From Pigoraptor vietnamica (Eukaryota > Opisthokonta > Filasterea): a stretch of DNA of 30,984 nucleotides. The position numbers and the translations under genes are program-made. The stretch lies in the NCBI GenBank assembly GCA_943704525.1, contig CALSCQ010002492.1:1-30984 (forward strand), in the 5' to 3' direction. Positions 7,772 through 30,937 of the stretch are shown piece by piece; the stretch's first letter is position 1; each line of letters begins with the position of its first letter. The notes below the pieces were generated by a model. That model saw only the letters and a list, made by a program, of their open reading frames with translations. It was not told the DNA's origin and searched no databases.

Positions 7772-9426
7772 CTACTGCGCGGCGTGCGTTCTCCGCGCCT
7801 CCTCGAGCACGCGCGTGGCACCAAGCGCACGCAGCTCGTCCGCCAGCTGCACACCCACGGCCTCCGCGTCGGCCTCGTCCGCGACAATCCCGCGCAGTGA
7901 CAGCCGCACCGCCTCGCTGCCGTCGAGCGCAAACACGCCGCCAGCAATGTCGAGCTCAAAGCGGCCGTTTTCGCCCCTTGTTACGTCCCGCGATCGCGAG
8001 CCCTGACGCGGCTGGGCACCGGCACGTGACTCGCGGATGCGCGTGTGCACGCCGAGGGGGACCGAGCAACCGCCCTCAAGGCTGCGCATAAACGCGCGCT
8101 CGGCGACGCAGCAAATGGCTGTGGCTGTGTCGTGGAGGGGCATGAGGAGGCGCAGGATAGCGCGGTCGTCCGCGCGGCACTCGACGGCCATGGCACCTTG
8201 GCCCACCGCGTGAAGGCTCACGTCGGGATCGAGCGTCTGCAGGCATGGGGCAATCGAAATTGATTGGAGTGCGGAGTGCGCGCGCGACCCCAAAAACAAA
8301 GTTCTGAAGGCATGCACGCAACCCACCAGCAAACATGGCCAGCGATGACACAAACGACGCCGCAACGCACCTCGCTGATGCGGTCCTGCCATCCCATGCG
8401 GTCGAGGCCGGCGGACGCGAGGACGATGGCGTCGTAGAGGCCCTCGTCGAGCTTGCGCAGGCGCGTGTTGATGTTGCCCCGGATGTCCTTGTACTGCAGC
8501 GCTGGGTAGGCGCGCCTGCGCACATACAAAGCTTAGAGATGCACGGGAGCACAGCACACGGTGACAATACATAGTCACACCGCTGCGGACGAGAGTGAAG
8601 AGAGAGGAAATGGGCAGGCAGCACAACAATCGACCCACTTGAGCTGTGCGACGCGACGCAGCGAGCTTGTTCCGACCACAGAGCCCGCAGGCAGTTCGGC
8701 AAGCGTGCGCCCGTTGTTTGCCTCGCTCATAACGACCTGCGAGTGGCTGGTCAGCATCGCAACGCCTGCACTGCCCACTAGCCACAGGCGCATACGTCAC
8801 GCAGAGCCAATCCTCTCCAATGCAGTGCAGCCATGCCCTACGGCAAGGTCCACTCAAACACTGATGCAAGAACGCACCACGTCGTATGGGCTGTCGCGCC
8901 GGTAAATAGCGCCAATGGCCATGCCATCGGGCAGCGTGGTGGGCAAGTCCTTGAGCGAATGCACCACAAAATCGACCTGCATTCACGACGTGTTACGACA
9001 TGCGCGGGCAGGAGTGATGCACACTGAACAGCCGTCACGCAAGCACAGCTCTGCTGCAGTAATGTGGCCGGCGCACCTCCCGCTTAGCAAGGGCGACCTC
9101 GAGCTCCTTTGTGAAGAGGCTCTTCTCGCCGATCTTCGAGAGTGCGCGGTCCAGCACATTGTCGCCCGTCGTGCTCATCGCCACTGCGCAGCCGCCGCTG
9201 TAAGCAGCGAGGCAAGTATTGGGCCACGGGACCACAGGCACGAACCGATCTCAAACTTGATGGTGGGAAAGTGCGCCTGCAGAGCCGCAATGATCGTGCG
9301 CGTCTGCGTGAGCGCGAGCTCGCTCTTCCGCGAACCCACGCGCACGTGCGTCGGGAGTGGCGGCGTGCGGCATGCCGAGGACAGGCGCTCGACAACGGCC
9401 GCCGCCGCAAAGGCTAATGTCAGCAT
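7772..9426 (-). CDS. HMBS: Hydroxymethylbilane synthase (porphobilinogen deaminase)
   Basis: Exons 9426-9246, 9183-9077, 8976-8881, 8736-8639, 8515-8371 and 8236-7772 give 363 aa, the usual length. The enzyme joins four porphobilinogen molecules into linear hydroxymethylbilane, the third step from aminolevulinate in haem synthesis. Family signatures appear in order: [87 protein letters not shown] and [13 protein letters not shown]. Cys266 in the last is the expected attachment residue of the dipyrromethane cofactor. The first 27 residues are rich in Ala and hydrophobics with two Arg and could be a weak organelle-targeting peptide, although animal and fungal enzymes are cytosolic. An insert of about 20 residues with [17 protein letters not shown] lies after the cofactor loop. 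The gene is divergent from the V-ATPase C gene. Confidence 0.97.
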
Positions 9427-9898
9427 GCCAAATACGCACTCGTACACGCGCGTGGGGCATGTAGTTGCGAATCGCGCTTGGATTTAATCGGCTTATGAAA
9501 GCAAGACGTCTGTGCCGAAAAACAGAGCCGATGACCTCACACGGTCACGTGCGCGCTCAAATTGCACGAACAGCTGACTACCGCCCAACTTGTGCCGCCG
9601 AGACTGCAACAAGTGATTGCAATTACACTGTTTGGGATCCGCGTGATAGGAATCTGTCAAACTCCCATTAGCACGTTGCGCCGCGTTGGCGGTAAGCGTG
9701 TGTTCGTGTGGGTGTCTCCGCATCTTTCATACAAATCGCGGCGAATTCCGCTTCTTGCCACCATTTGCCTCGTATTTTGCTTGTGTGCGGTGCTGCGTGG
9801 CAGAGGTGAACTCTCTACACTAGGCGATCGAAAGCGGCGGCTCTTCGCATATCCGTTGCGTGTACGGCCGGCTGCAGTTGCGTGCGGCGCGGGCGGAA
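9427..9898. promoter_or_regulatory. Divergent intergenic region between HMBS and V-ATPase C
   Basis: These 472 bases contain no exon I can support. They must hold the promoters of two housekeeping genes read outward. Short AT-rich patches occur near 9480-9500 and 9610-9670. A CACGTG core lies at 9546-9551, but this hexamer is common in GC-rich DNA and appears elsewhere outside promoters, so I do not name a factor. Confidence 0.5.
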
Positions 9899-12151
9899 AT
9901 GTCGGACGGTCGCGAGTACTGGCTCATTGCGGCCCCGGCCGACCGGACGCGCGAGCAGACGTGGGAGAAGCTTCAGTCGCGGACGGCCTCCCTGGGCCTT
10001 TCGGTCAACTACAAATTTGACATTCCCGAGCTCAAGGTGCGTCCGACGTACAAGCCGTCGCTACACACGAAGTGCAGTGTTGGGAGTGGGAGTTGTGCTC
10101 ATGCGTGTGTGTCGCCTGGTGCAGGTCGGCACTCTCGATGCGCTCGTGAGCTTGTCCGATGAGCTCGGCAAGCACAGCGCGTTTGTGGAGGGCATCGTCA
10201 AGAAGATTGCGACGCTCATGGCCGACCTTCTCGAGGACCAGAAGGAAAAGCTCGACAGCAACCTCACGGCGAACGGCGGTGCGTGCGTGCGTGCTTCCGT
10301 GGACGTCTTCAGTCGGGGTGTGTGCATGGACCGCATTGCTTACTATTTTTGCGCGTGTGCAGGTGACCTTGAGCGGTACCTGACGACCTTCCAGTGGGAC
10401 GTCTCAAAGTATCCCCTCAAGAGCTCCATCCAAGAACTCACCGACGCCATTGTCAAGGTGCGCAGAGTGGCTGTGACGTGCTCGTTAGGGCGGCATTTTG
10501 TTGCCTCAGTCGCTCCATCTAGACGCAATAGTGGATCCATGCGCTTTTTCCCGGCGGTGTTTTGAGCCATAGCGCCAGTTGTGGGGGGCCGAGGCAAATT
10601 GTGGATGAGCTGGTGGTGTGCGAGGGTAGGCGAACGGGACTGAGTGGGCTGTGGGTCGCAGGAAGTGTCGGCGATTGACGGCGAGCTCAAGGGCAAGGTG
10701 CAAGCGTACAACAACGTCAAGAACAACCTCCAGGCCGTCGAACGCAAGGCGACGTGGGTTTTCTTCCGTCTGTAGTGCAGTCGGTGACACGCGCCCGTGT
10801 TTCAGCTGACTCCGCTGCATGTTGAAGCACCGCGATGTTGTCTGATGTTGTTTTGCGCCTGACCTATGTTTTGTTCACTCGCGCGCAGCGGCAACCTCCT
10901 TGTTCGCTCTCTGCACGAGCTTGTGACGAAGGACATGTTCGTCGAGTCCGAGTACCTTCAGACAGTGCTGGTCGTTGTGCCCAAGTGGGTTGCTGCTCCG
11001 CGCTTGTCTGTGCCACGCACCCTGAGGCACTGGCGCAACGGCACTCACGCTGTTTCGCTTCGTGCGTGTGTGTGCGTAGGACATTGTACAAGGACTGGCA
11101 GAACAGCTACGAGCGGCTCGCGGGAATGGTCGTGCCGCGCTCGAGCAAGTGGGTTTTGGCACAGTCGTAATTTGTTCAGTGTGCGCAAAGTGAGGTACCA
11201 TTGGGTAGGCATGGGACACGCGAGGGTTTGCCTGAGAGACGGGTGGCACAGTGGCGGAGGGCCGTGGCGGAGGGCCGTGGCTGATGGCACGTGACGCAGG
11301 CTGGTGACGGAGGAGGCCGATTACGGGCTCTACTCTGTGACCATCTTCCAGCGCGTGTACGACGAGTTCAAGAACAACGCGAGGGAAAAGAAGTGCGTGC
11401 GGCCCTTGTCCTTGCCCGCTTTTCTCGCTCTGTCGAATTCCCTGTGAATTGCAAAGCCCGTTGATTGTTCAGTCGACGTGCTGAGTGTCTGTCCGTGTTT
11501 TTTCGGAGTGCGTGGCACCTTTCATTGGCTGACATGCCTGTGCATGTTTCAGGTTCGTCGTCCGCGACTTCAAGTACGACGACGCCGAGGTCGAGTCGAG
11601 CAAGAAGGAGAAGGGCAATTTGGAGAAGGAGCTCAAGAAGCAATGGGTGGGTGCCTTTCTCCCTGTGCCGCCTGCGATTGCAGGCCACTCATGCTGACAT
11701 GGTCACGTGCCGCGCAGACGTCGATTGTGCGCTGGGCCAAGACGCAGTTCAGCGAGGCCTTCCAGGCGCTCATTCACCTCAGGGCACTGCGCGTGTTTGT
11801 GGAGAGCGTCCTCCGATACGGACTCCCCGTCAACTTCCAGGCCGCGCTCTTGCTGGTGCGTGGCGTGCGCCGTACGCTCTTTCCATTCCCACTCCTTATG
11901 CTACTGTGCCCGAGTTCCCTGCTGCATCCCATCGCGCCGAGTGTCTAACATACGCAATCCGCGCGCAGCCCAAGAAGGGTAACGACAAGAAGGTCCGCGA
12001 GGCGCTGCTGCAGCTGTACGGACACCTCGACGGCGGCGCGTCCAAGCCCGTCAAGGGTTCTGCCGCGGACGTGGAAATTCCAGGCCTGCTCGGGCAGCAG
12101 GACTACCTTCCCTTTGTCTGCTACAAGGTGTCGCTCAACCTCGTCGACTAG
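9899..12151 (+). CDS. ATP6V1C: V-type H+-ATPase V1 subunit C
   Basis: Ten exons (9899-10036, 10125-10278, 10363-10457, 10662-10753, 10889-10984, 11080-11148, 11300-11392, 11553-11646, 11718-11855, 11969-12151) give 383 aa, matching the usual 380-390. Subunit C is the clamp between the peripheral stalks and the membrane sector; its release accompanies reversible V1-Vo disassembly. The family pattern runs the full length: [144 protein letters not shown]. The N-terminus starts without an extension and there is no membrane segment, as expected for a peripheral V1 subunit. The middle coiled, charged region ([18 protein letters not shown]) is normal for the family. The many introns are 71-204 bp. 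Confidence 0.98.
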
Positions 12152-12361: not shown

Positions 12362-13523
12362 TCACTTGAGGGGCACGCCAAATCGGAGCGCACGCAGCCG
12401 CTTTTTCTCCTGCGCAACGGACAAAAAAGTGACACCTCAGACGCCGTGACGCCAGTCGGCACACACACACCCCCTACACCCACCCGCTCCTCCTCTGAAA
12501 TGGCCTCGTTCATTGGCCGCTTCGCCGATCCGTTCGCCGCCGCCGGTGCCTTCGCGGGCGCGGCTGCTTCTGTCTGCTGCGGGATCCCGAACCGCTCGGC
12601 TCGCTTTTGCAGCTTTGCGGCTGCCTCCGAGAGCGCTGCCGTCTGCGATGGCTCAACGTGAAAAACGCTTCTTTGGACACAAGCGCAACACGAGGATGAA
12701 CCCACCTGTGCCGCTGGCTTCGGCGCCTGCGCGGCCTTGGGTGCAGCCTTGTTGTCGGCGGCAGCTGTGGACGAAGACACGTCAGGACAGCGCCAATGAT
12801 GGGACCCGCAGTTACCATCAGACACTCACCCGTCGCCGCGGGCGATCCAAACTTTTGCGCGCGAAGCTGCTTCCGATCATCCTCCGCCGCGGGAAGGCCA
12901 AAACGCTCAGCACGGCGAAGGCGACGCGCAGCCTCACTCTCGTCATCGGCTGCGGCAGCGGCGGCATTCGCGGCCGGGGCTGCGCTGGCACCCGATGCGG
13001 CGGGCGCTGGCACTGCAGGCGCTGTCGAGGCAGCGGCGGCGGCGGCGGCAGCGGCGACGGCCGAGACGGCGGGCTTCTGCACAGCGGTGCCCTTCGGCAG
13101 CGCGGGCGTGGCAGCAGGTGCGGGTGCGGGGACAGGCGCTGCAGCGGCGGCGGCGGCAGGTGCGGACGGGGCGGCCGGCGCGGCAGTCTCCGCGGGAGCT
13201 GGGTGGGGACAACGTGAGCAGGACGTGGGACACAATCACAACGGCACTGGTACGCTCGGCGCACGCACCGGCGCTCTTGGCGTTGTCGTCCTCTTCGAGA
13301 CGCGCCACGAGCTCGCTCTTTGTCCCTCCGGTGGGAAGGCCGCGGTCGCCGAGGAGCGCCTTCAGCTCAGCGACCTGCACAGCCGCAGTGAGCAACACGG
13401 ACGCAGCAAACGCACATCAGCCACTGCAGGACCCCGTGATGGCTGCGATTCAAAAATTGGACCACACTGGCTCGTCAACGAATGGCCACGCACCTTGAGC
13501 CTGTTGTAGTTTGATGGGGCCAT
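12362..13523 (-). CDS. SARNP: SAP-domain mRNP factor, SARNP/CIP29/Tho1-like
   Basis: Exons 13523-13494, 13374-13269, 13198-12830, 12764-12706, 12642-12484 and 12409-12362 give 256 aa. Residues 1-45 are a SAP DNA/RNA-binding helix-turn-helix (NRLKVAELKALLGDRGLPTG, then TKSELVARLEEDD), split by intron 1. SARNP/Tho1 proteins package nuclear mRNA with the DEAD-box helicase UAP56/Sub2 and the TREX complex. Short basic-aromatic motifs occur four times: RRAERFGLPAAEDD, LRAQKFGSPA, QKRAERFGIPQQ and the extreme C-terminal KKRLRALRFGVPLK. Such RxxRFG motifs are the helicase-binding repeats of the family. They are separated by a long Ala/Pro-rich linker of low complexity, which makes the protein longer than human SARNP (about 210 aa). 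The last 16-codon exon is joined by the phase-0 acceptor at 12410 and restores the expected C-terminus. Confidence 0.92.
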
Positions 13524-13850: not shown

Positions 13851-15316
13851 TCACATGCCATCGTCCGACCCGGCGTCTTCGTGTTCCTCCCCGCCGTCTC
13901 CCTCGCCCTCGCCACCCTCGTCGCCGTCCTCCCCCTCCCCGTCGCCCTCCTCGTGGTCCCCCACGCCCACGCCCACGCCATCCACGCCGTCCATGTCATC
14001 ACCCTCGCCGCCGTCGCCGCCGTCGCCTTCCTCGCCTACGGTTCGCTGCCGCTTCGACGCGCGGGACGCATCCCCTTCGTCATCTTCGCGTGGACGGTGT
14101 TCGCTCGCGCCCGCGCCATCGCCGTGTCCGTCCGCCAGTCCAAAGCCGCGAAGCGATGGCCGCGTGGATCGGTGTAGGCGCTCGTTTTGGTATCGGCGGA
14201 GAAGCTCCTGCTGCTCAATGTGCAGGTGGCGCACCTGCGGCAAAACAAAAGACGAGACAATGTGTCAAAATTGCGCCGCCATTGAGGCAACAAGAGAGAC
14301 ACGACGCAGAGAGGGCGCACCTGCTCGAGGTGGAAGGCCTGCATGCCCAGCAGGAGGCTTTGCTGAAGGTCAAAGCGCTGCTGCGGCGAATCGGCCACCC
14401 CAAGCGCCGCCTCCTTCGTCGCCTGCGCGGCCAGGTAGCCGTCCATGAGCGCCGCCCGCGCGTCCTCCGTCATGCGTCGGTGGCGCTGAACGTAGCGTAC
14501 AAATCCCTCGCCCAGCGCGTTCGCCAGCACCCCGGGAAAGTCAAACTCGAACAGCGCGCACGGATCGCCCCCTGGCAGCCGCTGTGTCACATGACCCGCC
14601 GGGTCGTCCCCTGGGAGCCGCTTGCCCCCCGCGCGCGGCCGCACGCCCGCGGCGGCGTAGTTGGCTGTCTCGGCGCCCGTGCGATTGGCCATCGCACTCA
14701 GCTTGGCCGCGAGCGCCCGCCGCTCCTTGTCCAGGCGCGCCACCGACCGCTTCAGCTCGGACTCGTTCTCCGCGTGACGGTCGCGCATTTCGCGGAGCTC
14801 CTGCTCCAGCTGCGCGTACGTCTTGTGGTTCTTCAGGTGCCTGTTAAGCTTCGCCCGCTCCACATACCCCTTGCCGCACGCGCCGCACACAAAGGGCTTC
14901 GCACCCGTGTGCGCCAGCGAGAGGTGATTCCGCAGAGACTTTTGCACCTTAAAGGCGCGACCGCAGCCGTCGTAGCTGCACACGTACGGCGTCTCGGACG
15001 AGTGCACGGCGGCGTGCCGCTGCAGGCCCAGCGCCGTCCCAAACCGCTTCCCGCAATCTGCCACGTGGCACGTATAGGGCCGGTTTTGCCGCGCGGGTGT
15101 GTGGAAGTCCTTAATGTGCGCATCCACACTTCGCGCGTTCTTATATCGGCGTGTGCACCCTTCCACCGAACACGCAAACGGGCGAGCGTCGGGGGGAGGA
15201 CCGCCCAGCGCCACGGCCATCGCAGGCTCGCGACCGCCCACGTCGTCCCGGTGGCCCAGAACGTGCAATGGCGGCTGAAAGTCCGCATACATGTGCCCCG
15301 CAAGGTGCGCCGCCAT
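13851..15316 (-). CDS. C2H2 zinc-finger protein with coiled coil and acidic tail
   Basis: Exons 15316-14321 and 14234-13851 give 459 aa. Four C2H2 fingers lie at about residues 47-165: FACSVEGCTRRYKNARSVDA..., YTCHVADCGKRFGTALGLQR..., YVCSYDGCGRAFKVQKSLRN... and FVCGACGKGYVERAKLNRHL.... The first three have CX4C spacing and the last CX2C. The long C-to-C spacing and linkers recall TFIIIA-type fingers, but TFIIIA has nine. A Glu/Arg-rich coiled coil follows (YAQLEQELREMRDRHAENES). Next comes a conserved-looking helical region (FDFPGVLANALGEGFVRYVQ; LQQSLLLGMQAFHLEQVRHL) spanning the intron. The last roughly 70 residues are Asp/Glu/Gly-rich after a basic SRASKRQR patch, a possible nuclear localisation signal. 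A sequence-specific regulator is likely; the target is unknown. ATG 15316 is the first in-frame ATG of the open frame, and the next in-frame ATG at 15292 is an alternative. Confidence 0.85.
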
Positions 15317-16491
15317 TCTCGCACAAGGGCCGTGGCCCACACGCAAAGCAGTTGTCGCAGGACGGGTGGTGCGATGCCAACGACGCGCCGGTACTTGCAC
15401 ACTTCCACCGTATCGTCACTCGCCACCAAACACGATATATATATAACTCGCGTGCACGCATGCGCCGGAATACCTCGGAACACTAAGAAACAGCAAAATT
15501 CTTTGCAGGGGTGTCGTGGTCGACAAGCGCTTTCAACCAAAGCGCGCCAAGTGCGCCCTCTTGCCTCGAATGGCTTGTGGAGAAATTTCAAATCCAAATA
15601 TAGTAACGAATTGTGTTACGTTGTTACTCCTCCGTTGTCGGCCTCAAAAAACTCCAACAGCTCACAACGAGTGAGTGGATTCCCCCCTTTTGTCGTCAAG
15701 AGGCCCGCCATTCGCCATTACAACAGCGGACTCGTTTTAATTTTACACTCAAAGGGCGTGTTGTTCTTCCGCAACTGAGCGTAGCGCGTGGTCTGACACC
15801 GCCTTGGTGCAAACGTGGTGCAAACGTCCATATGGACCCTGATTGGGGAAGGTAGAAACTCATGAGCAGCACACGAGCTGTTGTATTTGTGTGTGTTTAG
15901 TGTGTGTATGTGACATGCGTGTGTGCTCCGTGTGTGAGTGACAGCGGGGTCGCGTGGGCGTGGGGTCGAGGGCAGTCGGCCCAATTTTTCATGTGCTCGG
16001 ATATGTGCGGTGGTCTTCAGGTGCGTTCGATTGGTCCGAAAGCCGGCTGCACGCGCCCATTGTGCGGGTGCCTTTCGTTGCTGTCGTCCCACGGCGCATT
16101 CCGCGAACTGCGCGCGGGAATGTCCGGGTGCATTTCGGATCGCTACGTTTTCTCTCCGTTTGTACGGGGCGACACCCCCGCGCATGCCCGGCATTCCAGC
16201 ACTTTGGGGAGAAGGCACGCGCGCCACGCACAGCACGCAGCGCACACACAACGGCGCGATGGGCGGGTTTTTGTTTTGACCCACGGGCACTTGTCTGCGC
16301 GCGTTGCTGAGCTGGCGCTCGTGACGTCCTACGCCAGGCGGCGCGCGCGGTACCCCTGCTATATGAACTCCCACCGCGACGGCATCAGTAAGATTCGATC
16401 TACACACCCGTTTAAACAATCTGTTTTAGCTGGATGTGTGTTGGACGCGAAGAGAAGTGCGAAGCCTTGTGAGACAGGCGTGATTTGAACC
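15317..16491. promoter_or_regulatory. Long divergent intergenic region between C2H2 and LEA-like genes
   Basis: At 1175 bp this is the longest stretch without an assigned gene. The open frames inside do not resemble proteins I know. The left end has a TATA-like run for the leftward gene. AT-rich sequence spans about 15590-15740. GT-rich simple sequence (15885-15940) follows. On the LEA side, TGACGTC (16322-16328) and CTATATGA (16359-16366) lie about 165 and 126 bp before the ATG and could be promoter elements. A small unannotated exon or noncoding RNA cannot be excluded. Confidence 0.45.
15435..15446 (-). promoter_or_regulatory. TATA-like element of the C2H2 gene
   Basis: ATATATATATAA on the + strand reads TTATATATATAT toward the zinc-finger gene, 119 bp upstream of its ATG. 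It is the clearest TATA-like run in this GC-rich window. The position fits a core promoter with a 5' UTR of about 90 bases, but no transcript evidence is available. Confidence 0.4.
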
Positions 16492-19400
16492 ATGAAGCAC
16501 GTACGCACACTTTTGCTGCTCGGCCTGCTGGTAGCAGCGGCCGCCGTCGGCACGATGGCGCTGCGAGATGTAAGTGCCCCTCCTGATGTGTGCATTCTTG
16601 TGCTTCAATTCGGCGGCTCACGGGGACGTTCTTTCACGCAGAGCGGCGAGCAGCTCATGAAAGAGGGCGCACAGGAGACGGCTGATGGCATGCGCAAGAT
16701 GAAGGACGGTGCCGCGCAAATGGCGAAGGACAAGGCCCGCGACGGAGCAGACCTCGCCGAGGATGCCGCGGACACGGTGAGAGGAGGAGCGTCGTACCTC
16801 AAGGATAAGGTGGTCGACACGGCCAGCGCCGCCTACGAAAAGGTCCGCGACACGGTTGCCGGGGGCGCGGAAATGGTCGGCGATGCTGTGAAGGGGACAG
16901 CGCAGCTGGGTGCGGACGCAGTGCGCGGCACCGTGAACGCTGCCAAGGACGCTACGGAACGCGTCGGCGATGCGGTTCGAGGCACGGCACATGCAGCGCG
17001 CGACACGGCGGCGGACGCAGCCGAGTCAGCTCGAGATCTAAAGGACAGCGTTGTTGACCGTGCCGAGGGAGCGTACGAGCGCACAAAAGACACCGTGCGC
17101 GGAGCGGCGGATGCGGCGAAAGACACGGCGGCGGATGCGGCGGACGCGGCGAAGGACACGGCCGAGTCGATTCTTGAGCGCGCCAAGCACGCCGTGCGCG
17201 GTGCGGCAGAGTACGTTGGCGATGCGGTCCGTGGAACGGCTCACCTCGGAGCGGACGCCGTTCGTGGCACTGCGCACGTCGCAGGTGATGTCGCCGGGGC
17301 TGCTGCAGGCGCCGTGAAGGGCGCAGCGGATGTTGTCGGCGACGCAGCACGGGGCGCGGCGAACCTTGGAGCCGACGCTGTACGCGGAACTGCGCGTGCT
17401 GCTGGCGACGTCGCCGGGGCGGCCGCCGGAGCCGTGAAGGGCGCGGCAGATGTCGGAGCGGATGCTGTGCGCGGTGCGGCGAACAAGGTCGCTGACACGG
17501 CACGTGCGGCACGCGACACGGCGGCGGACGCAGCCGAGTCGGCTCGAGATCTTAAGGACAGCGTTGTTGACCGTGCCGAGGGAGCGTACGAGCGCACGAA
17601 AGACACCGTGCGCGGAGCGGCGGATGCGGCGAAAGACACGGCGGCGGATGCGGCGGACGCGGCGAAGGACACGGCCGAGTCGATGCTTTATCGGGCCAAG
17701 GACGCAGTGCGCGGTGCGGCAGAGTACGTTGGCGATGCGGTTCGTGGAACGGCTCACCTCGGAGCGGACGCCGTTCGTGGCACTGCGCACGTCGCAGGTG
17801 ATGTTGCCGGGGCTGCTGCAGGCGCCGTGAAGGGCGCGGCGGACGCCGTTGGCGACGCAGCGCGTGGAGCGGCGCACCTTGGGGCTGATGCTGTGCGTGG
17901 TACTGCCCATGTTGCAGGCGATGTTGCCGGGGCTGCTGCGGGCGCCGTGAAGGGCGCGGCGGACGCCGTTGGCGACGCAGCGCGTGGAGCGGCGCACCTT
18001 GGGGCTGATGCTGTGCGTGGCACTGCACATGCGGCAGGTACTGTGGCAGGGGCTGCCGCGGGCGCAGCGAAGGGTGCCGCGCACGTCGGAGCGGATGCTG
18101 TGCGCGGGACGGCGGACAAGGTCGCCGATGCGGCACACGCGGCACGTGACACGGCCGGTCGTGTGGCTGACTCTGCGCGGGATGCCGTTGCGAAGGGCGC
18201 TGGAATAGTGGAGGACGGCGCGGAGTACGTGCGGAAGAAGGCGGAGCATGAGGAATCGATTGTCGACAAGATCAAGCGCGTGGTTGGGATCCACACCGCG
18301 CACGAGGTGCGTTCGCTGCACTGTTCAAAACAAACAAAAGCAAAGAGGGTTTCTGCGTGCTGACACCTTCTCTCGTGCGCAGCCAACGATTTTCGAGACG
18401 ACCAAGGGCTACGCGGAGGATCTTTCCGACCGCATCAAGGCCGGAGCGCAGGACATCTACCACTCGATTATTCCCGAGCCCTCGGCGAAGGAGGAGTTGA
18501 AGGACGGACTTGGCGAGGCAGCCCACGCGGCGCGCAAGGTCGGCGAAGGCGCGGCGCACCTCGTTCGCGACACTGTGTACGACGCCGCGGGTTCGGTTAA
18601 GGCGGGAGTCGCGAACGCGGCCGATAGCGTGCGGTCGGGAGTGGTGGGCGCGGCGGAGTCGGCCAAGGAGAGCGTCGAAGGGGCGGCGGACAGCGTAAGG
18701 GCCGGCGTCGGCAAGGTGGGCGATTTTGTGAGCGGCGGTGTGGAAACCATCCGCAAATCGGTGCGCGATACGGCGGAGGAGACAACGGACTCTGCGAAAG
18801 ACGCGTATGAGCGGGCTAAGGGCACGACCGAAGGAGCGGCCGAGGGCATCGTGGATCGCATCAAGCACGCGGCCGGCTTTGGAACGGAAGAACTGCACAT
18901 GGCGAAGGAAGACGCCAAGTGGGCGGCGAAGGACGCGAAGGCCAAGGTCGAGGAGGAGGGCGAGGGCATTCTCGAACGTCTAAAGCACGCGGCGGGCTTC
19001 GGCGCGGAAGAACTCCACGAGAAGAAGGAAGACGCTAAGTGGGCCGCGAAGGACGCGAAGGCCAAGCTGGAAGAGGAGGGCGAGGGCATTCTCGACCGTC
19101 TCAAGCACGCGGCGGGCTTCGGTGCGGAGGAGCTCCACGAGACGAAGGAAGACGCCAAGTGGGCGGCGAAGGACGCGAAGGCCAAGCTGGAAGAGGAGGG
19201 CGAGGGCATTCTCGACCGTCTCAAGCACGCGGCGGGTTTTGGTACGGAGGAGCTCCACGAGACGAAGGAAGACGCCAAGTGGGCGGCGAAGGACGCGAAG
19301 GCCAAGCTGGAAGAGGAGGGCGAGGGCATTCTCGACCGTCTCAAGCACGCGGCGGGCTTCGGTGCGGAGAAGGCCCAAGAGGCGGTCGACACCGCAACCG

Positions 19401-19915
19401 GCGCGGCGAAGATGGCAAAGGACGCGACGGAGGATGTGGTGGAGGATGCGGCGGAAGCCGTGCGGCAAAAGGGCGCCGAGTACGCACGGAGCGCCAAGAA
19501 GCTGCGCGATGACGCGATGGCGAAGGGGGCGGAAGCCCTCGACGCGACGCGCGCCAAGGCCGACAAGGTGGTTGAGCGCGAGAAGACGGGCGCGGGGGTT
19601 GTCTTGGACGGCGCCGGTCGCATCGTGGACGGACTGAAGCACATGGTTGGGCTTGGGTCTGCGTCGGGCGAGGAGATCCTCCAGGGCGAGCGCGCGAAGG
19701 AATCGGCCGCGGATTCGGTGCGGGACGCTGTCGAGAAGGCGCGCACGGCGGGCGAGGGCGCGCGCGTGTACATGAAGAAGGGCCTCGAGGCACCCGACAC
19801 GGCTGCGCGGCGCGAGGCGACGTCGGCGACGGGCCAGGAGGAGGCGGAGACGACTGGGTTCCAGCGGATGAAGAACCTCGTGCACGACACGCTCCGCAAG
19901 GCGGGGGTGGTGTGA
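16492..19915 (+). CDS. Secreted LEA-like amphipathic-helix repeat protein
   Basis: Exons 16492-16569, 16642-18306 and 18383-19915 give 1091 aa. Exon 1 encodes almost exactly a signal peptide: MKHVRTLLLLGLLVAAAAVG then TMALRD. The rest is Ala, Asp, Lys, Glu, Gly and Arg with almost no aromatics and no Cys, arranged as helical repeats like KDTAADAADAAKDTAES, typical of group-3 LEA proteins. Two arrays stand out. Exon 2 has units of exactly 40 residues (GAVKGAADAVGDAARGAAHL...). Exon 3 has four full and one partial 40-residue units (ILDRLKHAAGFGAEELHETK, then EDAKWAAKDAKAKLEEEGEG) at residues about 735-910. LEA proteins are unfolded in solution and become helical on drying or membranes, protecting proteins and lipids. 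No membrane anchor or ER-retrieval signal is seen at the C-terminus (RKAGVV), so it should be secreted or luminal. An apolipoprotein-like lipid-binding role is an alternative. Intron 1 alone in the window has the GTAAGT donor. Confidence 0.88.
17008..17833 (+). repeat. 513-bp-spaced segmental duplication in the LEA-like gene
   Basis: About 320 bases from 17008 reappear from 17521 with a constant 513-bp offset (171 codons). By eye only about a dozen positions differ, roughly half of them around 17170-17190, where IL-ER-AKHAV becomes ML-YR-AKDAV. The frame is kept. The near-identity suggests a recent in-frame duplication or gene conversion. Confidence 0.85.
17308..18180 (+). repeat. 120-bp coding repeats, array 1
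   Basis: Units begin at 17308, 17428, 17821, 17941 and 18061. Adjacent units are spaced exactly 120 bp; the jump between the second and third reflects the inserted 513-bp duplication. The units starting 17821 and 17941 are identical for about the first 90 bases. They encode Ala/Gly/Val/Asp-rich helix. Confidence 0.9.
18842..19370 (+). repeat. 120-bp coding repeats, array 2
   Basis: Units begin at 18842, 18962, 19082, 19202 and 19322 (the last partial). The units from 19082 on are almost identical to each other, while the first is the most diverged, as in an array that grew toward its 3' end. They encode a Trp-containing 40-residue helical unit. Confidence 0.95.
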
Positions 19916-20070: not shown

Positions 20071-23000
20071 TCAAAACTCCATCGCTGTTCGCCCATCGTC
20101 CGCGGGTGGCGGGCCATCCGGGGCTGCAGGCGCCTTGTCGCGCAGGGGGAAAAAGAAGGTCCGCGAGGCCACGACGACGCACAGCTCGGCCGCCTCCACC
20201 CGCAGCACAAGGTCGGCAGAGTGCGGGCCGCTGCACACCATACACCCAGTTAAACCGTGCGGCAGCATGGGATCAGTCTACTGTTGCGGCTCCCACCTCA
20301 CGAGTCCCTCGATGCGCCGATGTATGCTGTTGGGCACCATCAGCGGGGCCAGGAGGGACCGGCGCCCGAGCGTGCGCAAAGCCGCACGGCGCACAGTGAG
20401 CGACGGGTCCTGGTATGCGATTTGAACGACGTTGTCCAGACAGTCGTCGGCGACCTTGCGCTTTTCGGCGTCGTCGCCCTCGCTCGCGGCTGTTAGCCAC
20501 TCAGGGTTCGCGGCAACTTCCACGAGAATGTCCATTGCCGCAATGCGCACATCGAGAAACTGGCCGTGCCTGCGAGGGTCTGCGATGAACACTGCGCACA
20601 AGTAACAGGCACCGAATGCCGACCGCACACGACAGAAGACGAGGCACGTACTCCGCAAAATCGGCAAACAGGCCGCGGTCGAGGAGGCAGACGTTGCCAA
20701 AGGCGTTGAGCGCGCGCAGCAGCGCAACCGTCACTGAATTTCGGAAGCTCGGCGAGAGGCGGTCGATGTTGATGCGGCGCACGAGCTCGTCGAGCACAGG
20801 GCGCAGATGGACCCAGTCCTTCAGGCCGCCCCTCTGCACCACCTCGCCGTCCTGCTCCTCCGATTCCGTCGCTGCGGCCGCCGACATCGCCGCCGTCACA
20901 AGTGCGTCGATGAGCGCGCAGACGTATGCGCTGTCGTCAAACTGCACCGCCAGACAATGAGACCAACAGTACAGACGCAACTGCCGCCGCGTCACCTCCA
21001 CCCACCTGGTTGATCGAGTTGTCGTTGGAGGACAGAAGCTCAAGGAGGAGTTTCACGACCTCATCCGGACACCTGTCCTGCGCATCGCGACACAGAGCGA
21101 GCGCGCCCACAAGGCCCTGCGAGTACGACGGCGCCATGTTGGATGCACTCGTCCGGCAAACGGCGCACGCACACGTTGCCGTACCTTCTGCATTTCGTAG
21201 TCCACCAAGCACTCGCGCTCGAACCGGTTCGGCCGCACGAGCCACCCTGTCTCCGGACGTACGCTGGGCTGCTGCGCTGCGGCTGGCGGCGCCTCCGCAT
21301 CGGCGGGAATTGTGCGGTGCTCCGCATCCTCCACGGCATCCATGAACTTCTCGCGAAAGTAGCCGACGAGCGCCTTCCAGCCGAGGGGCTTTCGCGTGCA
21401 CTGCGCGTGCACAAGGATATCAACAATAGCGCACATTTGTCAGAACAGCGCCAGTGGTCAGTAAGAGCGCCAGTGGTCAGCAACAGCGCCAGTGGTCAAA
21501 GAAACGCCAGTGGCACACAGGGCCAGCATGACAGCAGCGCGACACCTTTGCGAGTGCCTTGGCGGCCTCGATGCGCACGCGGTAGTAGCACTTGAAGTCG
21601 TCCACCATGCGCAGCAGCACGGCCACAAGCGTCTCCGTCTTCTCAGAGGACCGCTCGTCCGGGGGGCCCTCTTGCAGCCGGCGAAGTGCCTGCAGTCAGG
21701 GGCACAGCATTAGTGCGTTACGCACTTGCCCACACCGCGCACGCACTCACCCTCTCTTGCACGACGACGTCCCGCTCGAGGAGTGCCTGGAAGAGCCACA
21801 CGTACTCGGGGACGGTGTCAGGGGCACCCGCCACGGGCGTCTCCCGCACCCACTCGAGCTCGTTTGCCGGCACGTGCGGATTGCACAGCCACAGCATGTC
21901 CGGATCAATCGCAAGATAGAGCACGGGGACCTCGCGCCTGCGTGTGCCAACGTCATTAGACGACCCACTTCAGTGGCAACGAGTGAGCTAGAGACAGAAA
22001 TCACACCCACTTGTCCGCAAAGTCCATGTCCAGGTCCACCTCCTGGCCGGTGGCGAGGACGATGCGGCGGCTCTGCTTGCGCTGCGGCTTGCCATACGAC
22101 GGGAGCTCAAACACGAACTCGGCCTTGTCGACGTAGGGTTCATCCTCGCGCTCCGTCCCGTCCGTCTCCCGCCAGCGCACCAGCAGCTTACCCTGGGGGA
22201 AAGGGGGATGCGGGGAGGGGGGTCGTTGGTTTGCTATTTTTATGCACACGGCGCACCACAGGCCAACGGCCACGCACCTTGGCAAACGAATCCTCCTTCT
22301 GCATGATGATGAGCTTGCGCCCGTCCTCGACAAACTTGAAGCGCACCTCCGGCAAAACGGCATTTTCGGTACACCGCTGTTAAGGAGAGACAGACAGCGG
22401 AAACGCGCACAGCCACGACAACCACCAACGCATGTGTGCGGATATCTCCACCTCGGCACCTGCATCCCCACGTCCTTGCTGGTCAGCGATCGGATCTTTC
22501 GCTCAAATTTCTTGACGTCCACATCGCCGCCGTCCACAAACTGCCGCACAACGTTCCTCATCGTCTCCGGGCCGACCGCGCGCGCCACGGCCGCAATGCG
22601 TACGGGACCGCGCAGGCCGTCCCACGCTATCTGCTCGCCGGCGAGGCTGCCGAGTGGCACGGGCGGGTGGAGCACGTTGTGGCAGTGGAGGACACCCAAA
22701 CGGCGGTAAATGTTGTCCACGGTGGTGCGTTTCGCATACTCGTCGATCCACTCGCCCATCTGCGCATACGGCAATCAGTACGCGCGCGCACACGGCCGCA
22801 GAGACAGAGGGAGCCCATGGTCAATGCGCAATCAGCACGCGCGCGCACCGGCCGCAGAGACAGAGGGCAATGCGCGGTTGGAATTGAGTCCCCGATGACA
22901 CCGAGACCAAACAGAAAGACGACCCGGGGGGGGGGCGGGAATGCGCAACAGAGAGGGATGGTGGCGCACCTCGTGTTGCATCTCGTTCGCGCCCAGCAGC

Positions 23001-24121
23001 CGCGGCGATCGCAGCACGGCGTCCGCCACGACCGACGCAATCCCCGCGACCAGCCACTCGTCGTCGTGGGTGGCCGCATACAGCCGGTGGCCAAACCACT
23101 GGCACGCAAGCGCTCGCACTAGCGTGGCGCGCGTCTCCCTTGTCTGGTCGAGGACTCGCCGCGAGTGCAGCAGCTGGAGGGGCACACAGGCGCCGCCCGC
23201 AAACGACGCAAACGGCGCGGGGCACGCGTCCACAAAGACCACGCCGAAAGCGCGGTACGGCAGCATGGGGTTGCCTGCCGCGCCCTGCCGTGTGCGCGCC
23301 GTCTGCCCCGCGGGCGCGGCCTTGATGTCGAGGTAGCGGCAGCACTCGGCAACGGCGCGCGAGACGCTTTCCGTGGCGTGAGCAAGTTCGGCCGCAAGGC
23401 CCAGGGGCGCAAAGAATGTCACGTGCGGCACTTCTGGGTCGCTGATGGCCTCGAAGCGGCCCGCGGCAAAGCCAATGTCGAGCGCGGACGCAGGCACGCG
23501 CACGGCAAAGTGGAAGATGCGGCGGTTGGTGGACGCCACGAGCACCTGCTGCTCGAGGACGCCGCTCGCGACCGCCAGGCACTCCGGCGCCACCGCAATC
23601 TCCATGTCCCACGTGCATCGCGCCGACCGCCGCTCGATGCACGGCATCCACTGCCGCTGCGCGCCGAGGCCGACGTCCGAGAAGGCGTGCGGGGGCCGGT
23701 CTGCGTAGTGCCGCTTGGACGGCAGCGCAAAGTGCACGCCGCCCCCGGGGTCCTCTGCCGCGTACTCGATGCGAAGAACAAGACGCCGCCGCCCGCTCTC
23801 CTCGGCGACGACGGCGTGCGGGGGGACGGAGACGGCCATCTCCTCCGACAGCTCGGAAATGGCGCGCGACGACGTGGACGCGCTCGCAAAGGGGTCTGCC
23901 AGCACATGGTGCGCAGGCACGCCATTCACGCGCACGTCGCGGATGCGCAGGCGGAAGCAGTGGGCGCGGAGAACGCCGGGCGTATCCGCGCACGAGAATG
24001 TCAGCTCGACATGGCCCTTGAGCGCGCGGCGGGCGAGGTTGAGCGCAAGGACAACGCGCTGGTGCTCGAGCACGGGAGCGTCACCTTCGTCGACGTCGAC
24101 GGCGCCGCCCTCGCGCGCCAT
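20071..24121 (-). CDS. TAF2: TFIID subunit TAF2
   Basis: Eleven exons (24121-22970, 22759-22460, 22376-22278, 22192-22011, 21937-21751, 21689-21546, 21400-21185, 21116-21006, 20941-20652, 20569-20297, 20230-20071) give 1037 aa. TAF2 is a scaffold of TFIID that contacts core-promoter DNA. Residues 1-384 follow the M1-aminopeptidase fold (HFALPSKRHYADRPPHAFSD, QWMPCIERRSARCTWDMEI), but the enzyme is dead. The HExxHxWFG zinc site reads VRALACQWFG, and WLNEGFA reads WLVAGIA, with the third ligand Glu lost. Family landmarks follow: GQEVDLDMDFADK, VLYLAIDPDM, ERDVVVQER, YYRVRIEAAKALAK, CPDEVVKLLLELL and FADFAEHGQFLDVRIAAMD. The C-terminal part forms HEAT-like helices and ends without the His/Lys-rich tail of animal TAF2, hence the shorter length (human about 1200). 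The last exon (PHSADLVLRVEAAE...) is joined in frame from a GTGGGA donor; skipping it would end the protein at a stop near 20278. Confidence 0.93.
21441..21513. repeat. 19-bp minisatellite in TAF2 intron 6
   Basis: The core CGCCAGTGG occurs four times (from 21449, 21468, 21487 and 21505) with 18-19 bp spacing. The array makes up half of the 145-bp intron 21401-21545. Confidence 0.9.
22771..22869. repeat. Tandem duplication in TAF2 intron 1
   Basis: A segment of about 42 bp beginning GCAATCAG, with a CG-alternating core and ending in GCAGAGACAGAGGG, is present at 22771 and again at 22828. The duplication lies next to the acceptor and explains why this 210-bp intron is the longest in the gene. 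Confidence 0.85.
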
Positions 24122-24500
24122 TCGCGTGGGGTGTGTGGGGGCGAAGGCGAGGGCGCGCGACGCAGCGCACACTCGCAAACAGGGCGTTCGTTTCGCGCTT
24201 TCGCAGTGGCCATTCACGGTAACGCGCACACAGCTGTGCTGTCGGCGGCACGTGACAGATGACGAGCACAAGGTCTGGGATGCGGTGGATGTTACGATGC
24301 CGCGTATGGTGGGTGTTACATTTTCCTTGTGAACTCAACTGCTGTGCCGTGCACCGCCTCTTCAGTGGATATTCAAGCCCTTGGAATAGCACTCCTTTGC
24401 GTGTCGGAGAGCTGTGTGCTCTTCCCGTAACAGCAGCGTTGGGGCCGCGTACTTGCTTTGGGGCTTGCGAGTGCGTGCGTGCGTGCGTGCACTTGCGGCC
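24122..24500. promoter_or_regulatory. Divergent intergenic region between TAF2 and the CLC gene
   Basis: This 379-bp region must hold both promoters. An open frame continues upstream of the TAF2 ATG but lacks an in-frame ATG, so I treat it as 5' flank. The sequence just before the CLC start is GTGC-repeat-rich (about 24472-24492). No clear TATA element is visible. Confidence 0.5.
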
Positions 24501-27500
24501 ATGGCGAGTGCAGGGGGTCGTGCTCCCGAGGAGGCTCGCCGCCTGCTTGACTCCCCCGGCGACACCGACAGCACCGCGGGCGACGCGGACGGGCCTTCGG
24601 CGGAGGATGAGCGGCGGCCGGCGGGGTTTCAGGCGGCCCTCAACGCCCCGCAGCGGACGCCGCGCGAGCACAGAGCACGGCTGCCGGGGAGGGTGCGTGC
24701 GTTCGCTAGCATGCGTGCACGGTCAACTCTTGTGGTTGTGGGCTGGGAAGGGTGCGATCGCGCGTGTGGCAGTAATTTCACGGCGCTTCTCTCGCAGATC
24801 AAGCGCAATTTCCAGGCTTTGGCTGCGATGGGTGCGTTTGTGCGCTGCATGTGCTCTCCTGCGCCTCTCCATGTCGGCGTGTGTTTCTGACGAACTGCTT
24901 CCGCACAGCCGCGGGCAACAATGAGCGCACGGGAAGTCCCACTTCGCACCTCGGGTTTCTCCGCCGCCGCACGTCGCACGTGCCGCTGCGCAACGAGCCC
25001 GACGACGACCTGGACAGCGTGGACCCCGGCGTGCCGCCCGTCTACGAGGACTACACAACCATTGGTGCGTGTGGTCGTCCGTTGCGCGTGTTCGGCAGTG
25101 TGGGAGGCAGAGAGGCAGAGACGTGCACACAGAAGTTTTGCATGAAGTTCACTCTGTACGACGCAGATTGGGTGCGCGACAACACACGCGACCGCGTGCG
25201 CCTTGCGAAACTGCGGGCACAGAAGGTGGGCGCTGTCTGCTGTGTGTCTGCTCTGCGGTGTCTGCTCTGCGGTGCGCGTGGGATCCTGCACTGTGCGTGC
25301 TTGAGACTTGCCGCCAACATGGGACCCTGCACTGTGCGTGCTTGAGACCTGCCGCCAACACGGGATGCGCAGGGGAGCTTTAAGGGCTGGGTGCTGCGCA
25401 TCATCGACCCGTGGGAAGGGTGGCTCGTCGCCTTCGGGATAGGTGCGGTGCTTTGCCTTGAGCGTTGTTTGTTGACGTCATCCCGTCTGCTCCCTCCACA
25501 CTTCAGGGCTTTCTTGCGGCCGAGTGCCGATTTTGGTGCCACACACACACACTCTGCCACTTCGTGTTGGGGTCGCTTAGCTTGTCCCAGGGACTGGTCA
25601 CTTCCATTCCTCTGAACGCTGTGCCCTGGAATTGCAGGCGTGTCGCTCGCACTGGTTGCGGCCGGCATCGACATCAGCACCGAGTGGCTCAGCGACCTGA
25701 AGGAGGGCTACTGCCCCGAGGCCTTCTGGCTCAACAAGAAATTCTGCTGCTGGACGTCCTCCACCTACGAGGGTGAGTGTGCGACGCGCACGAGGCGATC
25801 TGTAAATCGCGACGTGTGTGGTGCGGGTGCTGACGTGCGATTGGGCGTAGATGGCGAATGTGACCTGTGGGTCACGTGGGCCGAGTCTGCGGGTTCGACG
25901 GGCTCCAAGTCGCTCTTCCTCCTCAACTACTTTTTCTACGTGCTGTTTGCGGTGCGTTTGTCGCATTGCGATCCTGCGTCGGCGTTGTGTTTGGGTGATG
26001 TCCTTCGAGTCCATGCCGCGTGTGTCTTATGCGGTGGTGTGCGGGTGCTGTCGCGGCGCAGGTGCTCTTCGCGTGCCTGAGCGCCGTGCTGGTCACGTGC
26101 CTCGCGCCCTACGCCGCGGGCAGTGGCATTCCCCAGGTCAAGACCATCATGGGCGGGTTCGTCATCCGGGGGTTTCTCGGCTCGTGGACGCTCCTCGTCA
26201 AGTCGGTGGCGCTGGTGCGTGCCGTGGTGTGCCGCGTCTCCTCGTGGTGGCTGTAGTGCGTGCCGTGTGCCGCAAGCGTGCGATGTGTGTTGAGGTTGTG
26301 CGATCCCGCGCGCAGGTACTCTCTGTGGCCTCTGGCATGAGCCTCGGCAAGGAAGGCCCCTTTGTGCACATCTCGTGCTGCTTCGGCAACATCTTTGCGC
26401 GGCTGTTCGACAAGTACAAAAAGAACGAAGGTGAGGACGGACCCGCAAGCCCGCGACTCCCGTGAGGGGCATTGCGATTGCGTCGTGCTCAGCCTTCCTC
26501 GGCTCTGTGCAGCAAAAAAGCGCGAGCTGTTCTCAGCGGCGACAGCGGCCGGCATCGCGGTGGCCTTCGGAGCGCCCGTCGGTGGAATTCTATTTAGTCT
26601 CGAGGTGCGTGGGCGTTTGGCTGGCTACAGAAATGGGATCGCTTCTCACAGTCGCCGTGCAGGAAGTGAGCTATTACTTTCCATACAAGACAATGTGGCG
26701 CGCGTTCTTCTGTGCGCTCACGGCCATTGCGACGCTGACGGTGGGTATCACTTGGAATGTGTGCCTGGCGCTCTCCTTTTCGCCTGTTGGTCCCTGCTCG
26801 CGTGTGGTTTTGGTCCGTCCTTGAACTTGTTTGACGCACGCGCGACAGTACTTGAACCCGCTGCGCTCCGGGCGCCTCGTGCTGTTTTACGTGTCGTACG
26901 ACCATCCGTGGCATGCGTTCGAGACGATTCCCGCCGTCTTCATTGGCGCCCTCGGCGTGAGTGATGTGCATTGTGTGCGTTTATGTGCATTATGTGCGTT
27001 ATGTGCGTTATGGCTGCGACTGACGTGTGGCTGCAGAAGTGGATCCGATGCGCAGAGCCCTGTTCCACCGAAGCGCATCTCCCTGATTCCCCTCCCCCTC
27101 AATACCTCCACAGGGGCTGTACGGCGCGCTCTTCATCCGTCTGGCGATCCGCTGGGCGGCGTACCGCAAGGCGTCGTTCATCGGGCGATTCCCCGTGGGC
27201 GAGGTGATGGCCGTCGCGCTCGTGACGGCCATCGCCAACTACTCGAACGTCTACCAGAAGGGCATGTCCGTCGAGCTCATCCGGACGCTCTTCTCCGAGT
27301 GCCTCCCAGGCGACCAGTCGGACATATGGTGCGTGATATCGCGTGTGGTGTTGCTCGTGCAAAAGGACTATGGTGCGTGGTGGCGTGTGTTTTCTGGGGA
27401 CGCAATCGACATGCGGTACGTGACACACATCGCATGTGCCGTGGATGCACTGCGCTGATTCACTCACTCGCAGCACCCACCGCTCGTCGCGCGTCGTCAT

Positions 27501-29294: not shown

Positions 29295-30390
29295 ATGGTC
29301 GAGGCGTGGTTTATGGACGACGACACGAGCAGCGACCAGCGCCTGCCCCACCGACAGACGCCGAATGCGCCGGTGCGTGACACTGCTGGCGCCTGTCTTG
29401 TGCGAGTGCTGAGTGCGCCGAGTGCGCCGAGTGCGCTTGTTCGCAGGTGTCTCTCGACTACCTTGCCTCGTTCGGTGTCAAGTACTACTGCATTGACGGC
29501 GACACGGAGGAAGGCAAGGCGGCCCTCGAGCGCGTCGCACGTGACCTCGCCATCAAGAACAGGGACCAGGTGCGTTGGGCAGTCTCTCTCGGAGAGTGGG
29601 CATTGCGCTGCGACTGCGCTGCCACTGCCGCAAAAGAGCGCATGAGGTGCATCTCTAAGCGCACACTTCAGTCTGTACTGCGTGGCTGTGCGAGTGGCGG
29701 CTCGGTAGTTTTGCTGTAGTCGTCCCGTGCGCGCCCGAGTGTTGTCCTTCGTCGCTCACTGTCACACTGTTTTCTTCTGCGCCAGGTGCACATCACGGAG
29801 GCCATGCCCAACTACGCAGACAGGATCAAGGTCTTCTTCCAGGAGTGGGTCGCTGCCGCCTGTCCATCTGTCACTCTCGCCTTGTCTCTATTCCGCCCTC
29901 ATGCTCCCACTGGTCAACTCATTTGCGCACTATGAGAGCTTCGTCTCAATTCCGCCATCACCTCGCCTTGCTCTCATATGCGCACTGTGGGAGCGCTTGT
30001 CTCAATTGCGTGGTCGCAGGCACCTGCACGAGGACGACGAGGTGCGCCACTTCGTTGCTGGCTCGGGCTACTTTGACGTGCGGGACCCTCAGGACCGCTG
30101 GATTCGCATCCACGCCGCCAGGACCGACCTGCTCGTGCTGGTGGGTGGCGCTGCCATCGCCTATTCGCTTGGCCCACCATCACAGGCACACACTCACACC
30201 ATGCCATGTTACTCCCCAGCCCGCCGGCATCTACCACCGCTTCACGCTCGACACCTCGAACTCGGCGACCGTGACGCGGTTGTTTGCCGACGTGCCAAAG
30301 TGGACGCCGATCAACCGGCCGGCCGACGACAATGCCGCGCGCGTGGCGTACGTTTCCTCCGTGGGGCGCGCAAAGGGTGGCAGTGCGTGA
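29295..30390 (+). CDS. ADI1: Acireductone dioxygenase (methionine salvage)
   Basis: Exons 29295-29372, 29447-29569, 29786-29844, 30020-30140 and 30220-30390 give 183 aa (family about 180). This cytosolic cupin cleaves acireductone with O2. With iron it yields the methionine precursor 2-keto-4-methylthiobutyrate; with nickel it makes an off-pathway product with CO. The N-terminus [10 protein letters not shown] and the segment [17 protein letters not shown] are typical. Metal ligands are visible: [11 protein letters not shown] supplies His88, His90 and Glu94, and [11 protein letters not shown] supplies His133, the same numbering as I recall for the mouse enzyme. The end reads [14 protein letters not shown] followed by a short extra tail. 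The split codon ga|g before the first metal His confirms the intron 29845-30019. The gene follows CLC by 210 bp on the same strand and converges on the Rab14-like gene. Confidence 0.97.
29923..30007. repeat. Imperfect tandem duplication in ADI1-like intron 3
   Basis: TGCGCACT(A/G)TG(A/G)GAGC followed by a GTCTCAATT stretch occurs from 29923 and again from 29979, an offset of about 56 bp. CTCGCCTTG is also repeated. As in other introns here, local duplication has lengthened the intron. Confidence 0.75.
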
Positions 30391-30609
30391 CGCGCGACGG
30401 CGTGATGAAGCATGTGCTGTAAAGAGCGTTTACGACACACTGGGCGGCACCCAGCAGTTGGAACATGCGCGCGGGGCAGCAATTGCAGCAGATTTCACGC
30501 GAGGGCGCGGCAGCGTCAGCGCACAGCGAACAACGAGGCGGAGGCGCGAGGAAGCGGCAGGGACCATAACGACCATAGGGACGCAGGGCGCCCCGCAGCC
30601 ACGGCGGCG

Positions 30610-30887: not shown

Positions 30888-30937
<50 letters not shown>
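30888..30937. repeat. (AC)25 microsatellite in a Rab14-like intron
   Basis: Twenty-five uninterrupted AC units, read as (GT)25 on the coding strand, end about 30 bp before the acceptor at 30857. The flanking bases to the right edge show no exon of the Rab fold, so the whole tract 30857-30984 is probably intron. Confidence 0.9.

Follow-up and report, generated by a model that had tools for sequence, protein, structure and literature searches.

According to the papers cited here, prediction places LEA_4 proteins in every compartment of the cell, and three proteins of Arabidopsis, At1g72100, At2g18340 and At3g17520, are both LEA_4 and secreted; the classical 11-mer is reported not to be findable in the majority of sequences (PMC2292704). 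The 11-mers of C. elegans LEA-1, a protein whose isoform K has 1397 residues, raise the desiccation survival of E. coli (PMC8670023). A tardigrade group-3 protein passes from disorder to helix on membranes, Ala and Thr abound in its helical elements, and homologues that carry secretory signals have been counted (PMC10808001). In Toxoplasma, oocyst stress resistance needs LEA-like proteins, one of which, TgLEA860, has a signal peptide (PMC10128015). Tardigrades also possess heat-soluble protectants for the outside, the cytosol and the mitochondria (SAHS, CAHS and MAHS), which are tardigrade-unique families, and two rotifer LEA proteins are described alongside them (PMC4326354). Here we describe a LEA-like gene of the filasterean Pigoraptor vietnamica, located at positions 16492-19915 of contig CALSCQ010002492.1 (assembly GCA_943704525.1); the 30,984 bases of this contig, which were analysed as a whole, are called the window.

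LEA function is commonly discussed via 11-mers, whose 11/3 pitch makes the apolar stripe wind slowly round an ordinary alpha helix. The gene described here is real and under selection, and its product, probably exported, is built from amphipathic repeats of a different length. Judged from sequence, its best explanation is a secreted, group-3-LEA-like stress protectant, to which we give a probability of roughly 0.55. The label LEA-like is used instead of family membership because no match to the LEA_4 profile was obtained.

Gene model and repeat units

The gene and its parts are as follows.

16492-19915, plus strand: LEA-like gene, three exons (26, 555 and 510 codons), frame kept across the splices to give 1091 amino acids
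16492-16569, plus strand: exon 1, 26 residues, signal-peptide-like, likely cleavage after residue 23 (between TMA and LRD)
16570-16641, plus strand: intron 1, 72 nt, GTAAGT...CGCAG, in frame and stop-free, GC 0.56 against 0.69 in exon 2
16642-18306, plus strand: exon 2, 555 residues, amphipathic, 31% Ala, no Pro, Cys or Trp
16993-17439, plus strand: copy 1 of a duplication with 171-residue spacing, residues 144-292, 91% DNA identity with copy 2
17200-17439, plus strand: array A block 1, 2 units of 40 residues (11+11+11+7)
17506-17952, plus strand: copy 2 of the duplication with 171-residue spacing, residues 315-463
17713-18072, plus strand: array A block 2, 3 units of 40 residues
18307-18382, plus strand: intron 2, 76 nt, GTGCGT...GCGCAG, GC 0.51; the frame of exon 2 closes inside it (open reading frame end 18363)
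18383-19915, plus strand: exon 3, 510 residues and the stop
18845-19324, plus strand: array B, 4 full 40-residue units with one Trp each, and a partial fifth to ∼19372

The GC content of the contig is 0.64. An in-frame TGA lies two codons upstream of the ATG, and a TATA-like element 132 nt upstream of it. Splicing of intron 1 is deduced from its borders, because the intron is in frame and without stops; its retention would add just 24 residues behind the signal, and the N-terminus is identical in either case. The mature part of the product comprises 1065 amino acids with 0 Cys, as the initial annotation had estimated (about 1065 Cys-free residues behind a signal-peptide-like exon). Antisense open reading frames of up to 480 amino acids run across the gene, for example at 18457-19899 on the minus strand, and are probably a by-product of GC-rich, Ala-rich coding.

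Periodicity was expressed as the identity at each lag compared with 200 composition-keeping shuffles, in standard deviations (s.d.). Lag 40 stands 27 s.d. above the shuffles in the mature protein, and Tandem Repeats Finder reports a period of 120 nt at 17243-17484, 17727-18085 and 18861-19369. The exact 40-residue period that had been noted in both arrays is thereby recovered in each of the two large exons (exon 2, z=20.6; exon 3, z=20.5). In exon 2 the identity at lag 171 exceeds the shuffles by 22 s.d., and lag 11 ranks with the strongest periods (exon 2, z=13.6; exon 3, z=4.0). The prominent lags of 40, 11, 22, 33, 18 and 29 are all sums of 11s and 7s, 18, 29 and 40 being 7 plus one, two and three 11s. 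Since the unit of array A parses as 11+11+11+7, it is taken to be built on LEA-type 11-mers. The 40-mer had been contrasted with the 11-mers of LEA proteins; with three 11-mers and a 7-mer in the unit and a strong lag 11, this contrast does not hold for array A.

Homology between arrays A and B was considered and rejected, as their hydrophobicity profiles correlate at no more than 0.51 over 40 shifts, a value that helical periodicity alone can give. The shared 40-residue period is taken as a shared constraint and not as a sign of shared origin.

Between 40-residue units, the ratio of replacement to silent substitution rates (dN/dS) is defined and non-zero in 14 of 16 pairs, where it ranges from 0.036 to 0.184; one of the other two has no replacements, and the second has saturated silent sites, which leaves the ratio undefined. 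Across the 6 unit pairs of array B the values are 0.076-0.134, and the copies of the 171-residue duplication give 0.086. Repeat copies thus differ mostly at silent sites, which indicates that the protein is under selection, and the excess of silent changes argues strongly against a neutral product of slippage. That the locus is low-complexity sequence generated in this way, or an open reading frame mispredicted in GC-rich DNA, is extremely improbable: long antisense frames do overlap the gene and its Ala-rich, GC-rich repeats are slippage-prone, but the predominance of silent changes, the phase coherence described below and the proper splice borders with a preserved frame all speak for a true coding sequence.

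Helical phase, composition and predicted export

In exon 2 the spectrum of hydrophobicity has its maximum at 99.0 degrees, equivalent to 40/11 residues per turn, at 3.5 times the mean shuffled maximum and with 0 of 500 shuffles reaching it. The stretch before the arrays (residues 27-212) peaks at 98.5 degrees and the linker (577-735) at 99.0, each above 500 of 500 shuffles, and the C-terminal 180 residues peak at 100.5 degrees (reached by 4 of 500 shuffles). Array B has its top peak at 162 degrees (0.305), with a lower one at 99 degrees (0.267). Phase concordance among 26 windows of 40 residues in exon 2 is 0.94 at 99 degrees. It falls to 0.09 for the 11/3 helix (98.18 degrees) and to 0.15 for 100 degrees, the angle suggested for the hydrophobic moment in the initial annotation. 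The same source had argued that units of 11 turns would all present the same face; exon 2 fits this in both its peak and its concordance.

Within exon 2 the phase drifts slowly, and in the windows around residue 500 it differs by ∼84 degrees from that of the first windows. A shift occurs between residues ∼550 and ∼650, after which the phase holds fairly steady up to ∼1000, with an overall concordance of 0.65 in exon 3. The coherence of exon 2 is partly a consequence of tandem copying. At 99 degrees, 40 residues make 11.00 turns and 171 residues 47.03 turns; both copied lengths would preserve the hydrophobic face, which is suggestive, albeit from two lengths. On a 99-degree wheel of the array A unit, more than half of the circle is taken up by Ala, Val, Leu, Thr and Tyr together with some Gly, followed by Lys-Arg-Arg, Glu-His-His and Asp-Asp-Asp.

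The grand average of hydropathy is -0.43 overall, -0.90 in array B and +0.35 in array A, which contains 36-39% Ala and 20% Gly. Type I antifreeze proteins carry regular Thr on one face, at 11-residue spacing, with low Gly. An ice-binding helix of this type would fit the Ala content of array A and the Thr residues at unit positions 13 and 24, which are 11 apart. Position 2, however, is Ala, as is position 13 in 3 of the 5 units, so that Thr is irregular; the Gly content disfavours a rigid helix, the pattern of array B differs, and we regard an antifreeze function as highly unlikely.

At the N-terminus, residues 6-24 have a mean Kyte-Doolittle hydropathy of 2.30, with Lys, His and Arg before them and Ala at -1 of a plausible cleavage site, and in hydropathy and charge pattern this region looks like a classical signal peptide. 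The highest 19-residue window of the mature protein does not exceed 0.98, the mature protein has no N-glycosylation sequon, and the C-terminus reads RKAGVV, without a tail resembling endoplasmic reticulum retention signals. We infer that the N-terminus sends the protein into the secretory pathway, and export would be its default destination because neither a retention-like tail nor a second strongly hydrophobic segment was seen.

Export would also suit a structural role in an extracellular coat or in the wall of a cyst or spore, with long helices that bundle or gel into a matrix and do not protect membranes directly. The signal-peptide-like start, the length, the in-phase repeat copies and two mostly helical AlphaFold models of low confidence (mean predicted local distance difference test scores, pLDDT, of 53.3 and 55.4; helix, no strands) are compatible with such a role, and in the model of array B a row of helices breaks roughly each 40 residues. 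Cross-linking through Cys would be impossible in this protein, and only 2.4% of its residues are aromatic. No wall or adhesion domain scores above cut-off in Pfam or NCBIfam, and the paralogues introduced below look intracellular; a wall function seems unlikely on balance.

Family profiles, motif tests and paralogues

A six-frame search of the genome with LEA_4 (PF02987) gave no match at E<=1, and 0 of 14 control genomes match either. The profile appears insensitive here, because idealised repeats of published 11-mers themselves reach just 16.7 and 29 bits, against a cut-off of 51.1. Eight perfect plant 11-mers (90 residues) score 16.7 bits with LEA_4, less than with DUF883 (27.7) and Apolipoprotein (27.5), and the C. 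elegans 11-mer repeat (90 residues) scores 29 bits with LEA_4 and 23.6 with Apolipoprotein.

The gene has a profile match to PF01442 (Apolipoprotein A1/A4/E), at E 2.2e-14 and 54 bits over 4 stretches, more bits than either idealised LEA repeat attains (E 3.1e-6 and 4.8e-5). Together with the signal-peptide-like start, the wide apolar face flanked by basic and acidic strips, and weak matches of exon 3 to perilipin (E 0.0039, 16.7 bits) and apolipophorin-III (17.5 bits), it brings into consideration a secreted lipid-binding protein akin to exchangeable apolipoproteins, whose helices would enclose lipid, either within the secretory pathway or extracellularly. The match is below the 90-bit cut-off, though, and unspecific: PF01442 also matches at E<=0.1 in 13 of 14 prokaryote control genomes (none above cut-off), and other frames of the same genome outrank the gene. 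Its weight is limited because idealised LEA repeats match the profile too, though less strongly. Paralogues that look mitochondrial and cytosolic also misfit a secreted carrier, and we consider this explanation improbable.

Among NCBIfam models, Ag473 lipoprotein gave weak matches of 22.6-35.2 bits against a cut-off of 100, along with weaker ones. PDB sequences yielded only a marginal match to a designed miniprotein (E 0.029). In prokaryote genomes, 202 pattern matches to exon 2 and 74 to exon 3 were found, of which 0 were confirmed, as were 0 of 2 matches to exon 3 in viral contigs; uniqueness does not follow from this, because the genome collection consisted of bacteria and archaea only.

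In the motif test, the best score of a published 11-mer was compared with those of 100 permuted motifs and of its reverse. For the C. elegans LEA-1 11-mer, set three in a row, the permutations reaching the best score numbered 0, 1, 2 and 0 of 100 in exon 2, exon 3 and the products of two paralogous loci, C814 and C824. The plant 11-mer beats at least 98 of 100 permutations only in C824, where it also exceeds its reverse (86 v 82).

The two paralogues were obtained by searching the genome (32.5 Mb in 1395 contigs) with exon 2, at best E-values of 7.9e-12 for C814 and 1.2e-5 for C824, which are optimistic given the low-complexity sequence and for which only the best candidates were scored. When C824 is the query, the matches are C824 itself, the window gene and C814; with C814 they are C814 itself and the window gene.

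C824:11114 down to 8259, minus strand: paralogue, single open frame, 952 amino acids
C814:35057-34728 and from 34576 downwards, minus strand: paralogue, proposed 151-nt intron, 730 amino acids

The C824 product starts MERVKETYHRLL, with an in-frame stop two codons upstream, and shows lags of 40, 29 and 11. Having no signal-peptide-like start, it looks cytosolic. The C814 repeats resemble YEAKDTLKDKWEGAKET, with lags of 66, 18 and 11 and 18 Trp in 730 residues. By the proposed splice its product starts MFRGVVRVGLALSARQPTRRLSTS, with 5 Arg and 0 Asp or Glu in the first 30 residues. An Arg-rich N-terminus free of Asp and Glu is typical of mitochondrial presequences, and C814 therefore looks to have a mitochondrial-type start, if the proposed splice is right. 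The spectral peaks of the paralogue cores are at 98.5 (C814) and 99.0 degrees (C824), reached by 0 of 200 shuffles each, and Cys is absent from all three proteins. These paralogues of like design strengthen the LEA-like reading.

Trehalose-phosphate synthase (PF00982) and phosphatase (PF02358) have no match in the genome at E<=0.001, whereas 6 of 14 control genomes match each; other trehalose routes and sugars were not searched. The result is compatible with a use of protein protectants, but is no evidence of drying tolerance.

The neighbouring gene pieces that score over Pfam cut-offs are listed below.

840-1766, plus strand: WW domain
2560-5556, minus strand: ankyrin repeats
7772-8986, minus strand: porphobilinogen deaminase
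9882-10562, plus strand: V-ATPase subunit C
12513-13232, minus strand: Tho1/MOS11 C-terminal domain
14039-15400, minus strand: C2H2 zinc fingers
25851-26961, plus strand: CLC chloride channel
29727-30419, plus strand: ARD dioxygenase

The LEA-like gene itself is adjoined by TAF2-like gene pieces at 20501-21401 and 22835-24271 on the minus strand, where TAF2-type TPR repeats score 35 bits (over the 27-bit cut-off) and 24.7 bits (just under it), and an M1-peptidase N-terminal domain is borderline at 25.2 versus 25.8 bits. A perfect (AC)25 simple repeat occupies 30888-30937, near the contig end.

Proposed role and relation to known systems

Several results weigh against a LEA-like protectant. With LEA_4, exon 2, exon 3, C824 and 629 amino acids of C814 all remain unmatched at E<=10, so that the profile search suggested earlier came out negative for both exons. 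The reversed C. elegans motif runs close behind the forward one in all four pieces (68 v 76, 47 v 48, 61 v 77 and 70 v 78), and the plant 11-mer falls below its own reverse in 3 of 4 (54 v 59, 41 v 54 and 58 v 76), with 46 of 100 permutations reaching its score in exon 3. Array A is non-hydrophilic, and the charge-hydropathy line assigns 6 of 7 segments to its folded side and 1 of 7 (array B) to its disordered side, unlike typical LEA proteins. The AlphaFold models are helical and strand-free, which favours a LEA-like protein, but besides their low confidence that of exon 2 contains 79 residues of coil (model residues 337-415, pLDDT ∼31-44) reaching into array A block 2. A query with exon 3 finds no paralogue beyond the window gene in the genome at E<=0.01. 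Finally, the proposed C814 splice competes with other in-frame acceptors, and a start within the downstream exon is also possible. The first proposal, a secreted, 11-turn LEA-like protein, agrees with the findings and is strengthened by the paralogues, apart from the missing LEA_4 match and the points noted on the 11-mer and on known secreted and large LEA proteins.

A secreted stress protectant of this design should act as group-3 LEA proteins do, though its unit is larger and one of its arrays less hydrophilic. The chain, which is Gly-rich (20% Gly in array A), would probably be loose in water, and water loss or membrane contact may cause it to fold into long amphipathic helices. Array A, with its wide Ala/Val/Leu face, Lys/Arg strip and Asp strip, could then lie on membranes or pack on itself, and the charged array B might serve as spacer and shield. 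The paralogues would fulfil the same role in the mitochondrial matrix (C814) and the cytosol (C824). A 40-residue unit may be favoured since the face stays untwisted when further units, each of 11 whole turns, are inserted. A wider proposal, tentative and on present evidence rather doubtful, is that three LEA-like proteins share the protection of this eukaryote, which gave no match to trehalose-phosphate synthase or phosphatase, and serve the outside or lumen, the mitochondria and the cytosol. The exported one would be a phase-locked helix whose duplicated lengths of 40 and 171 are whole turns at 3.64 residues per turn, so that one membrane-facing stripe could run for ∼500 residues (∼75-80 nm if fully helical). 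A repeat length that removes the winding of the stripe would make it possible to ask cleanly whether membranes are protected by a long straight stripe or by the 11-mer itself, and if the three addresses are real, they would represent compartment-by-compartment protection in a eukaryote.

Perilipin 4, a cytosolic lipid-droplet protein, has very long in-phase amphipathic repeats with a unit of several 11-mers (33 residues). The present protein differs from it in its signal-peptide-like start, and the Pfam perilipin match noted above is only marginal. With exchangeable apolipoproteins it shares the secreted amphipathic helices and a sub-threshold profile match; apolipoprotein 22-mers are often punctuated by Pro, which exon 2 lacks, and the match, at 54 versus 90 bits, is unspecific.

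The closest resemblance is to group-3 LEA proteins such as C. elegans LEA-1 and tardigrade HeLEA1, which are described as having an amphipathic helix on 11-residue steps, large isoforms and several compartments including the secretory one. Differences from this group are the missing LEA_4 match, the 40-residue unit and a Gly-rich, non-hydrophilic array A, and the pitch over exon 2 is 3.64 residues per turn compared to 3.67 of the 11/3 helix, the latter being the ideal geometry and not a value from LEA sequences. A search of open-licence papers gave no LEA protein with a 40-residue helical repeat, and no secreted LEA protein of a free-living protist was among the matches listed. The initial annotation called a secreted LEA protein of this size unusual; secreted and very large LEA proteins are each known, but none described as both was found in the passages available. 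By description, the Toxoplasma TgLEA8x0 proteins are similar in being LEA-like, from a protist and made of amphipathic-helix repeat units, with a signal peptide in TgLEA860; they differ in their repeats of 22-29 residues, and those other than TgLEA860 are described without a signal peptide. The tardigrade SAHS, CAHS and MAHS proteins, also by description, offer a parallel in a protectant set for outside, cytosol and mitochondria. The kind of protein is thus already known, and what distinguishes the Pigoraptor gene is the unit length, the phase locking, the Gly-rich array and an apparent set of three addresses.

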